Translations under genes and position numbers: made by a program
The notes under the pieces: generated by a model
Told to the model about the DNA's origin: nothing
What the model saw: only the letters and a program-made list of their open reading frames with translations
Database searches by the model: none
NCBI RefSeq assembly: GCF_000179915.2
Contig: NC_014963.1
Span: forward strand, 4,340,001-4,404,000
From: Terriglobus saanensis SP1PR4
GTDB taxonomy: Bacteria; Acidobacteriota; Terriglobia; Terriglobales; Acidobacteriaceae
Reading direction: 5' to 3'
DNA length: 64,000 nt
Shown: positions 2,264-5,413 of the stretch, one piece after another
How the letters are laid out: every line of letters begins with the position of its first letter
Numbering within the stretch: the stretch's first letter is position 1

Positions 2264-3739
2264 TCATGTGGATGGCACAACCGAGGTCTCCGCTGCTCGA
2301 TAGCTCTCTATGAGCGCGCGGACAGCGTCCATGGCTTCACGGCGGCGGCGCGTGTCTTCCTGGTACTGCGCCAGCGACGCGGCGATGTTTTCTCCGCAGT
2401 GTGGACAATCGACTTCATGCGGCCACACATATTCGTTACACGCGCGGCAAAGTTTGAGCGTCGGAGGCACACGGCCTTCGCGCGGCGACCATCTTTCGTC
2501 GTTACTTAAACCCAGTTGGACGAGTTGCTTTTGCGATACCGAACTGGCGGCTACAGTGCCATCCTCGATCCGTTCCGTGATCAGCTCAAACTCACCGACT
2601 GCGAAGGAGTCCGGAGCGGCATCGCGGATCTTGACCACGCGCTCGCGGAGCCCCTGCTTTTCCAGCTCCAGGGCACGGTAGTGGCAGTATGGATTGTTTC
2701 CCGGTTTGCCAAGAAGCGAGTGTGAGGTCCATGTGCAGCCGCCGCGACAGACCTCGGCGTAGTAGCAGGTGCGACAAAACCCCCAAAGGTCTTCGATGGA
2801 ACGGAGGCGGCCGAAGTGGATCTCCTTACTGTGGTTCCAGATGTGTTCGAGCGTGAGGTCACGAACGTTACCGCCCGAGAAGCCAACGGTCGCCAGCGAA
2901 GGACAGCCCTTCACCGTACCGTCGGCTTCGAGAGCCAGACCGGTATGACCCGCATTGCAGCCGCTCCAGTGGACACGCTCGTCGCCGAAGCCTCGCCAGA
3001 TGTGCTCATAGGGGCCGAAGTAACCAATGTTATTGCCAGTGACCATCAGCATCCCGCGCTCTGCCGCTTCCTGATAGAGGCGTGCAAGCATGGGCATCAG
3101 TTCGAGCACACGGTGAGGTTGCAAGAGCAACTCCGGGTGATCGACAGCATTGCCCATGGCGACCGTAATCTGGATCTGCCATTGCTTGGCACCAGCTCCG
3201 AGAATAATCTCCATAAGCTCAGGAAGTTGTGGAATGATCTCGGCGCCGATTTGCGTATTCACGCTGATGCTAAGTCCAGCATCGTGGGCGCGCTGGAGTG
3301 TATCGAGGGCCTGGCGGAAGGAACCGGGGACACCTCGGAGTCTGTCATGCAGAGGCTCAAGGCCATCGAGTGAGACACCCAATCCGTTCATCCCTGCGTC
3401 GATAGCTTCCTGCAGGCGCTGCTGCGTGAAGTTGCGGCCACCCGTCTGGGTAGCGCAGTAGATACCGTGGTCAGCGCAACGGCGGATGATCTGCGTCCAG
3501 TCCTTGCGCAGATAGGCTTCGCCGCCAATCAGCGTGACCTCGCGCGTGCCTAGACGCGCGAGCGCGTCAACGACATCGAGGCACTCTTGCGTTGTAAGTT
3601 CGTCAGGGCGGCGATGGCCAGCGCGGGAGCCGCAGTGCATGCACTTGAGATCGCAGGCCAGCGTGATCTCCCAGACGACATGAACGGGAATGTAGCGCTG
3701 GAAATCCTGATTGGTGAGATAGCGTGGGGGCGTTTCCAT
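2264..3739 (-). CDS. Radical SAM/SPASM maturase associated with Y-x10-GDL peptides
   Basis: About 491 residues. Near the N-terminus is the radical SAM cluster motif CDLKCMHC (CxxxCxxC), followed by a GGEAYLR stretch typical of the fold. The SPASM region is visible as SGCNAGHTG, KGCPSL and CRTCYYAEVCRGGC, giving cysteines for auxiliary Fe-S clusters. A CxxC...CxxC zinc-ribbon-like segment (LCRACNEY, DCPHCGEN) follows near the C-terminus. The start at 3739 has a GGAG about 9 nt upstream; an ATG at 3763 is an alternative. Just upstream are two small Y-x10-GDL genes, the context I remember for the family called GDL motif peptide-associated radical SAM/SPASM maturase. Presumably it installs a radical-derived modification on those proteins. 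The chemistry is unknown to me. Confidence 0.88.
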   Translation of the reverse strand: METPPRYLTNQDFQRYIPVHVVWEITLACDLKCMHCGSRAGHRRPDELTTQECLDVVDALARLGTREVTLIGGEAYLRKDWTQIIRRCADHGIYCATQTGGRNFTQQRLQEAIDAGMNGLGVSLDGLEPLHDRLRGVPGSFRQALDTLQRAHDAGLSISVNTQIGAEIIPQLPELMEIILGAGAKQWQIQITVAMGNAVDHPELLLQPHRVLELMPMLARLYQEAAERGMLMVTGNNIGYFGPYEHIWRGFGDERVHWSGCNAGHTGLALEADGTVKGCPSLATVGFSGGNVRDLTLEHIWNHSKEIHFGRLRSIEDLWGFCRTCYYAEVCRGGCTWTSHSLLGKPGNNPYCHYRALELEKQGLRERVVKIRDAAPDSFAVGEFELITERIEDGTVAASSVSQKQLVQLGLSNDERWSPREGRVPPTLKLCRACNEYVWPHEVDCPHCGENIAASLAQYQEDTRRRREAMDAVRALIESYRAAETSVVPST

Positions 3740-3820
3740 CTTGCGGGGCTCCGATAGAAGCATCCCGCCACACCATCCTTGAAAGAGGACGATGCGGTGG
3801 GATACCCAGGATAAAGGGAG

Positions 3821-4186
3821 TTACTTACCTTCCAGTTTGGCAATCTCGGCGTTGAGTTTTTTGACCTCAGCAGAGATGTCGCTGCCTTTGTAGCTCTTTG
3901 CTTCAGCAGCGATAGCCTTCATCTTTTGCAAATCGCCACTCTTGATCGCGTCGTCGATAGGACGGCCGTAGAGCGGGCGAATGATTGGGCCTTTTGTATC
4001 GGATTCTAGCTTGGCTATCTCTACCTTGAGCGCTTCTACGGCCGCGCCCACGTTGCCGTACGTCTTCAAATGCTCCTCGGCATCGGTGACAGTCTTCTTC
4101 ATAGCAGCTAGATCGCCGCTGGCCGCTGCATTGTGAATACTGACGGCATACAGAGGGATGGGGTGGTGGGAACCTGTCTCGGACAT
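3821..4186 (-). CDS. Two-repeat Y-x10-GDL small protein, putative maturase substrate
   Basis: 121 residues, made of two tandem copies of a roughly 55-residue unit. Unit one has Tyr, ten residues and GDL at YAVSIHNAAASGDL (about residues 13-26). Unit two has YGRPIDDAIKSGDL (about 74-87). Each unit then runs into a helical part ending in EIAKLE. No signal peptide or membrane segment is seen. An AAAGGAGA ribosome binding site lies a few bases before the ATG. The next gene is the radical SAM/SPASM enzyme, 81 bp downstream, so this is the likely substrate. The family may be the one catalogued as DUF1843 (from memory, unchecked). Unusual in being a duplicated substrate rather than a single short peptide. 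Confidence 0.85.
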   Translation of the reverse strand: MSETGSHHPIPLYAVSIHNAAASGDLAAMKKTVTDAEEHLKTYGNVGAAVEALKVEIAKLESDTKGPIIRPLYGRPIDDAIKSGDLQKMKAIAAEAKSYKGSDISAEVKKLNAEIAKLEGK

Positions 4187-4204
4187 TTCTAAATCTCCTT
4201 TGGC

Positions 4205-4381
4205 TTATTTGTGAGCTTCGAGTTTTGCTATTTCGATTTTGAGCACTTCGAGCGCGGAAGATACGTCACCGTAGTCGGCAACATGTTTTTCCGCGGTGAG
4301 CAAGGTCGATTTCATCTTTTGGAGATCGCCGCTTGCTACTGCTTGCTGGATTGCGACGCCGTAAGGCCTGACATCTGTCAT
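4205..4381 (-). CDS. Single-repeat Y-x10-GDL peptide, putative maturase substrate
   Basis: 58 residues beginning MTDVRPYGVA. It contains one Y-x10-GDL unit (YGVAIQQAVASGDL, residues 7-20) followed by a helical stretch ending EIAKLEAHK, closely matching both units of the downstream 121-residue protein. The ATG at 4381 is chosen because an AAGAAAGG ribosome binding site lies about 8 nt upstream; longer in-frame extensions lack one and add unrelated residues. It ends 18 bp before the next gene, so the two small genes and the radical SAM gene read as one operon. It has no leader-peptide or Gly-Gly cleavage site that I can see, so the whole unit may be the substrate. Confidence 0.8.
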   Translation of the reverse strand: MTDVRPYGVAIQQAVASGDLQKMKSTLLTAEKHVADYGDVSSALEVLKIEIAKLEAHK

Positions 4382-5323: not shown

Positions 5324-5413
5324 TGGCGGAGGGAGAGGGATTCGAACCCCCGTTACCCGCAAAGGTAAAGCGGTTTTCAAGACCGCCTGTTTCAACCACT
5401 CACACATCCCTCC
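5324..5413 (-). tRNA. tRNA-Ser (anticodon TGA)
   Basis: The reverse strand begins GGAGGGA and ends TCCCTCC-G-CCA, a perfect 7-bp acceptor stem with encoded CCA. The anticodon loop CTTGAAA lies between complementary GCGGT/ACCGC arms and presents TGA, reading UCA serine codons. A long variable arm (around TTTACCTTTGCGGGTAAC) and the GGTTCGAATCC T-arm complete a class II tRNA of 90 nt. Confidence 0.95.

Follow-up and report, generated by a model that had tools for sequence, protein, structure and literature searches.

A radical SAM/SPASM maturase encoded beside DUF1843 proteins is probably a splicease-like enzyme acting on a conserved tyrosine

The window analysed here, a stretch of 64,000 nucleotides from Terriglobus saanensis SP1PR4, carries a three-gene cassette whose enzyme, P0001, is probably (at roughly 70%, in our estimate) a splicease-like radical SAM/SPASM maturase that works without PlpY and excises tyramine at a conserved Tyr of a folded three-helix protein. 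The substrate would be a leaderless DUF1843 three-helix protein, and the target its invariant Tyr at the start of helix 1. P0001 is predicted to cut most of this Tyr, as tyramine, out of the backbone and to leave behind a reactive ketone (a ketoamide), whilst the GDL motif would be a structural turn rather than the target. We infer this reaction, its sites and its product from family assignments, co-occurrence, the enzyme core and the site motif, which are set out below. The features concerned are as follows.

4205..4381, minus strand: P0003, 58 aa, one DUF1843 unit (PYG type), predicted substrate or partner; PF08898, 95.5 bits
4361..4363, minus strand: Tyr7 codon of P0003 (RPYGVAI; unit 1), weakest predicted site
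3821..4186, minus strand: P0002, 121 aa, two DUF1843 units (LYA and LYG types), predicted substrate; PF08898, 168.7 bits
4148..4150, minus strand: Tyr13 codon of P0002 (PIPLYAVSI; unit 2), predicted site
3968..3970, minus strand: Tyr73 codon of P0002 (PIIRPLYGRPI; unit 3), strongest predicted site
3758..3807, minus strand: 21-bp hairpin between the substrate genes and the enzyme gene, from folding energy against shuffles
2264..3763, minus strand: P0001, 499-aa radical SAM/SPASM maturase; TIGR03913, 860.6 bits, cut-off 591.75
3632..3655, minus strand: CX3CX2C motif of the radical SAM cluster, P0001 residues 37-44, from the sequence
2684..2959, minus strand: SPASM cysteines C269 to C360 of P0001; PF13186, 29.7 bits, and sequence
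2396..2449, minus strand: C-terminal CxxC...CxxC ribbon, P0001 residues 439-456, from the sequence; in TIGR03913 rows only

The genes are transcribed in the order P0003, P0002, P0001, all within 2264-4381. A sequence-only reading of this DNA had described two small proteins of 58 and 121 residues sharing three Tyr-x10-GDL units, directly upstream of a radical SAM/SPASM enzyme with a C-terminal CxxC...CxxC, and had taken them for a GDL-motif peptide/maturase cassette. Direct reading finds the three units at Y7 of P0003 and at Y13 and Y73 of P0002, and the ribbon where listed above; the family assignment holds as well, with P0001 above the curated cut-off of NCBIfam TIGR03913, 'GDL motif peptide-associated maturase', and DUF1843 (PF08898, cut-off 23.3 bits) in both small proteins, the P0002 match falling into two stretches. 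As in that family, DUF1843 units with Tyr-x10-GDL adjoin the enzyme gene, here three of them, and the enzyme combines the radical SAM motif with SPASM cysteines (C269, C287, CX2CX5CX3C at 330-343, and C360). A scan of the host genome (5.1 Mb, single contig) returned three DUF1843 units and one TIGR03913 gene above cut-off, all in the cassette. The arrangement is not a chance one, because the genome's only units and enzyme sit together and all 80 enzyme loci kept from other genomes also carry DUF1843. The nearest named relative at this locus is the Acidobacteriota strain Granulicella sp. dw_53, at 80% identity. P0001 may start at 3739 rather than 3763, since the ATG at 3763 lies inside a strong hairpin and a Granulicella homologue (L009) matches it only from the second Met onwards. 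The cassette is patchy in its genus, as six other sampled genomes of the genus have neither DUF1843 nor TIGR03913 by these thresholds. A tRNA-Ser(tga) lies about 1 kb upstream of the cassette (window 5324-5413, minus strand), and this and the patchy presence could mark an acquired segment.

The small genes do not occur mostly without a radical SAM gene, a pattern that would have told against the cassette: across three samples, there were 0 genomes with DUF1843 above cut-off that lacked TIGR03913 above cut-off. The genomes positive for one family were also those positive for the other: 2 of 396 in the phylum sample, 19 of 249 from the genus of a Pseudomonas locus (L010; three units each, genomes within one genus not being independent), and 7 of 239 from the family of a Burkholderia locus (L055; six with three units, one with one). 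The centre genome of each sample was chosen as a locus carrier, and the counts without centres are 1, 18 and 6. Below the thresholds, two genomes of the phylum sample (G202 and G368) have TIGR03913 matches, and the genomes G356, G409 and G465 have DUF1843 matches without an enzyme (E values of 8e-4 to 9e-4; reading frames 742-819 aa long), which are probably chance. A scan of named genomes found 133 relatives, of which 80 enzyme loci were kept; at least one DUF1843 unit occurs in the flanks of every one of them, and also in L093 of G286. Counted over 81 loci and the window, there are three units in 64, one in 9, five in 5, four in 2 and two in 2.

Two further arrangements were seen at these loci. 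In Undibacterium and a relative (L081, L082, L083, L085 and L086; ~7.3-7.9 kb and 9.5-9.9 kb), multi-unit DUF1843-type proteins flank the enzyme gene on both sides, with five units in total. A gene of ~220 aa with weak, sub-cut-off methyltransferase matches lies near the enzyme gene in six loci from several phyla (L069 9485-10177, L068 9514-10173, and similar in L071, L078, L087 and L088).

The splicease reading begins with the second family that P0001 matches, TIGR04103 ('nif11-class peptide radical SAM maturase 3'), at 449.7 bits against 154.6 for the third; the TIGR04103 cut-off of 725 bits is not reached. We take TIGR04103 to be the PlpX splicease family, the comparisons having been made with family members other than PlpX itself. 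Against one such member, a Calothrix enzyme above cut-off (L098 of G399; 808 bits), P0001 shows 49% identity over 379 aa, and 84 columns are invariant across 26 TIGR03913 and 5 TIGR04103 or TIGR04103-like rows. Four Acidobacteriota enzymes (L094-L097, from G202 and G368) match TIGR04103 better than TIGR03913, at 540-642 bits and thus below the 725-bit cut-off. A single branch (100/100) of a 49-enzyme tree splits all 19 TIGR04103 or TIGR04103-like rows from all 26 TIGR03913 rows; four radical SAM outgroups from the same genome were too distant to root it, their end branches saturating at length 10, and only the unrooted split is used. The C-terminal CxxC ribbon, a possible substrate binder in the sequence-only reading, is present in 26/26 TIGR03913 rows and 0/5 TIGR04103 or TIGR04103-like rows. 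The possibility that it is a fused PlpY was discarded, a comparison with a PlpY-like alignment giving a probability of 0.3% over one column. Compared with solved structures, mainly over residues 15-426, the P0001 model resembles SkfB (Z 28.1), SuiB (26.8), anSME (25.6), CteB (25.0) and PqqE (24.9), matches which say only that the predicted fold is normal.

In PMC11002830, PlpX is described as a SPASM radical SAM enzyme (IPR026482), clustered with Nif11- or nitrile-hydratase-type leaders and a partner PlpY, that excises tyramine from X-Tyr-Gly. PMC10533398 gives MYG and LYG as the natural PlpXY sites, tags such as GGPIRPLYGLPI as tested with PlpXY, and a printed loss for C8H9NO of 135.0757 Da, for which we compute 135.0684 Da. 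Among 194 sampled cyanobacterial genomes, 12 have a TIGR04103 enzyme above cut-off, and all 12 regions encode small proteins in which a leader-like part precedes YG sites, for the most part MYG or LYG. Two of three precursors scanned were above the leader_Nif11 cut-off and the third (L098) just below it. A small PlpY-like protein is encoded downstream of the enzyme in 11/11 regions clustered and, by profile, also at L098. These loci, with their Nif11-leader precursors, MYG/LYG sites and PlpY-like gene, agree with the PlpX descriptions. No PlpY relative and no convincing XYG peptide were found in four regions with sub-cut-off enzymes (L143-L145 in cyanobacteria, L146 in Acidobacteriota). The peptides beside three of the Acidobacteriota TIGR04103-like enzymes carry LYG (L096), PYG (L095) and DYG (L097), and match no NCBIfam model. 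The sequence-only reading knew of no solved product of such a maturase; this stands for the GDL-motif family, which is curated by name and without a product in the literature searched, and does not stand for the nearest sister family, identified here with PlpX, which has one.

Several observations concern the sister loci themselves. In G368, three splicease-like enzymes (L095-L097) lie within ~48 kb, each beside a different short peptide ending DYG, PYG or LYG (L147 1570-1788, L148 6252-6416, L149 6236-6418), and in the alignment these enzymes lack cysteines matching C269, C287 and C343 of P0001. Five cyanobacterial loci encode, among the precursors, a conserved cysteine-containing protein of ~145 aa (L132 3537-3971, L134 7040-7483, L136 2870-3319, L138 4107-4547, L139 7229-7669). 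Small proteins of a second GG-leader type, which lack YG and end for example in PPIILGLIFPP, are found at L132 3231-3491, L134 7499-7714, L135 7653-7895 and L136 2602-2847.

The site itself provides the next line of evidence. Cyanobacterial sites read PIIRPLYGVIVWP, IRIQPLYGVIVWP, PDIRPLYGVVIWP and similar, whilst unit 3 of the window reads PIIRPLYGRPIDD; one TIGR04103 precursor has PIIRPLYGVIV where unit 3 has PIIRPLYGRPI. A site matrix was built from 34 hand-picked training sites in 20 open frames of 12 loci, with no DUF1843 sequence among them and with the Tyr itself unscored; excluded were the Acidobacteriota peptides and one Nif11-like frame, L136 3480-3806, that has a CYG triplet. The background comprised 5,564 distinct Tyr contexts from the other genes of the loci and the window, after profile-based removal of 77 DUF1843 and 68 enzyme rows from 1,189 genes. 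No background Tyr scored as high as unit 3 (Y73; 0/5,564) and a single one as high as unit 2 (Y13; 1/5,564), whilst unit 1 (Y7, PYG) was matched or beaten by 655/5,564. Leave-one-out on the training sites gave 31/34, and 11/377 other Tyr of DUF1843 proteins lay above the 99% level. Across DUF1843 contexts, those above the 99.9% level were LYG 21/31, LYA 9/59, PYG 1/45, MYA 1/6, MYG 0/1 and MYM 0/2. LYG units thus resemble known splice sites, LYA units do so partly and PYG units hardly. As PYG occurs in most multi-unit loci, either the TIGR03913 branch takes X = Pro or the PYG unit has another role.

Conservation within the unit points to the same residue. From 238 units, of which 218 were well covered, 193 distinct units were obtained. 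Tyr is present in 193/193, followed by G (97), A (94) or M (2) and preceded by L (121), P (64) or M (8), whereas within GDL the G is kept in 184, the D in 144 and the L in 162. An alignment of 66 rows (65 of 67 unit references, and P0003) has Tyr7 as its sole invariant column, with G18, K24 and E50 nearly invariant. In an AlphaFold2 model of P0003 (mean pLDDT 77), helices span residues 7-17, 20-37 and 40-56, so that Tyr7 stands at the start of helix 1, Tyr-x10-GDL spans that helix, and G18-D19-L20 makes the turn into helix 2. Forming this turn gives GDL a structural reason for its conservation, and GDL is probably structural rather than modified. The sequence-only reading had named the Tyr or the GDL segment as the modification site; the Tyr, as the only invariant column, remains the best candidate, whilst GDL, which varies and forms a helix turn in the model, is judged the less likely. 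At the moderate confidence of the model, the Tyr lies at the less ordered N-terminal edge, where the enzyme could reach it. Between helices 2 and 3 the units also contain TYG and DYG triplets that are not conserved. The best match of the P0003 model in the PDB, with a Z of 3.8, is uninformative.

We weighed three other accounts of the cassette. P0001 might act on the same Tyr by another SPASM chemistry, such as a Tyr-based C-C or C-O crosslink, or an oxidation without excision. SPASM maturases carry out several chemistries, the closest solved folds (the five named above) are of that kind, the invariance of the Tyr would fit, and the Gly of XYG is missing in half of the units. The enzymes with solved folds are, however, far more distant in sequence than TIGR04103 (best PDB sequence match 79.5 bits, against 449.7), and the unit offers no second invariant residue as a crosslink partner, so we regard this account as unlikely, if the most serious of the three. 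It is less likely still that P0001 modifies another part of the unit, for example the GDL turn, with the Tyr serving for recognition only. The family is named after GDL and has its nearly invariant G18, K24 and E50, but the variation and turn position of GDL speak against its modification, as does the sister family, whose precursors have XYG in common and in which no GDL was seen.

Least probable, to a degree that we would be surprised to see it hold, is that DUF1843 proteins have a structural role by self-assembly, with the enzyme beside them incidental. According to PMC10994174, which reports the solved DUF1842 half of a DUF1842-DUF1843 protein, the family was picked for structure work on just that idea, from its repeated paralogues in operons, but a monomer with no higher order was seen. 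The account also sits poorly with the co-occurrence of both families in the same genomes in three samples, and with the DUF1843 units at 80/80 kept loci.

Excision of tyramine is favoured because TIGR04103 is the second family of P0001 by a wide gap in score, because of the identity and the invariant columns shared with it, because TIGR04103 loci look as described for PlpX, because units 2 and 3 score so high in the site matrix, and because the Tyr is invariant, with G or A after it in 191/193 units; the LYG, PYG and DYG peptides of Acidobacteriota also speak for it. Against it, P0001 lies far below the TIGR04103 cut-off, half of the units are YA, PYG fits poorly, the four regions with sub-cut-off TIGR04103-like enzymes gave no convincing XYG peptide, and the units hold the non-conserved TYG and DYG triplets. 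Nor was a PlpY relative found at the TIGR03913 loci, though PlpXY is described as a complex. To our knowledge, no spliced XYA site has been described. If P0001 is a splicease, 'some modification of Tyr or GDL' becomes a single mass change, -135.068 Da, on specified residues. By calculation, the unit 3 tryptic peptide GPIIRPLYGRPIDDAIK would go from 1893.084 Da to 1758.015 Da upon the predicted excision, that of unit 2 from 3075.491 to 2940.422 Da and that of unit 1 from 2346.200 to 2211.132 Da. As to what the ketoamide might be for, our guesses are inhibition of a protease or, through its carbonyl, condensation with an amine.

Somewhat less firmly, we lean towards extending the same chemistry to the whole TIGR03913/DUF1843 family: these would be PlpY-free spliceases whose substrates are three-helix proteins, folded and without a leader, in many genomes present as three units. 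Ketoamides would be placed where helices begin, in Pseudomonas, Burkholderiaceae, Chromobacterium, Acidobacteriota, Alphaproteobacteria and Cyanobacteria, and the system would be dedicated to protein editing rather than to making a natural product. If so, backbone editing to electrophilic ketoamides would be commonplace in small proteins whose relatives are linked to quorum sensing or stationary phase, and a splicease free of both leader and PlpY would be a practical protein-labelling tool. In the literature searched, no title links DUF1843 with splicing; going by their titles, two studies (Scott et al. 2022; Richter et al. 2024) may already describe such splicing.

The expression context of the cassette centres on the hairpin. 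The segment 3740-3830 folds at -37.9 kcal/mol (z -3.75), with 0/200 shuffles as good. The gap before the enzyme gene was foldable in 74 of 80 loci, with z below -2 in 37/74 and below -3 in 24/74, and strong hairpins turn up repeatedly in the gap from the last substrate gene to the enzyme gene, with different sequences (L009, L010, L068 and others). On a plain reading, the hairpin would act in attenuation or in RNA processing, yielding substrate in excess of enzyme. Promoter and terminator scans gave nothing above chance. In Chromobacterium subtsugae, a DUF1842/DUF1843 cluster beside a 'GDL motif peptide-associated' maturase increases with quorum sensing (PMC12114271); in Burkholderia thailandensis, DUF1842/DUF1843 genes go up as stationary phase approaches (PMC12322963).

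Set beside other TIGR03913 loci, the cassette is a typical member of its curated family, and the new part is its likely chemistry: the enzyme above cut-off, the DUF1843 units directly upstream and their number of three are common to both, and nothing essential differs, save that the units of the window are not fused to DUF1842, unlike those of Pseudomonas. A DUF1842 scan of the host genome gave no match, but neither did its control, so absence is not established. BPSS0212, a DUF1842-DUF1843 protein (PDB 8t0b; PMC10994174), has MYGVAIQ in its C-terminal DUF1843, aligned with P0003; unlike in the window, this DUF1843 is fused to a beta-barrel, and with the protein made in E. coli its DUF1843 part did not appear in the density. 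With PlpX-type systems the cassette shares the identity over the catalytic and SPASM core, the invariant columns and the PLYG-type site, with X-Tyr-Gly in adjacent substrates (unit 1 has PYG and unit 3 has LYG, whilst unit 2 has LYA). It differs from them in the extra C-terminal CxxC ribbon of P0001 and TIGR03913, in that YA makes up half of the DUF1843 sites and roughly one site in three has Pro as X, and in a substrate predicted to be a folded domain without a Nif11 leader; no Nif11- or nitrile-hydratase-type leader was matched by NCBIfam or Pfam in P0002 or P0003. It differs also in the partner, as a profile from 11 PlpY-like proteins found no relative in the window or in 80 TIGR03913 loci (best E 2.2), whilst the control at L098 was found at 3e-17. 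Taken together, these comparisons suggest that P0001 works like a splicease, yet as a non-member of TIGR04103, with excision of tyramine as its predicted reaction.
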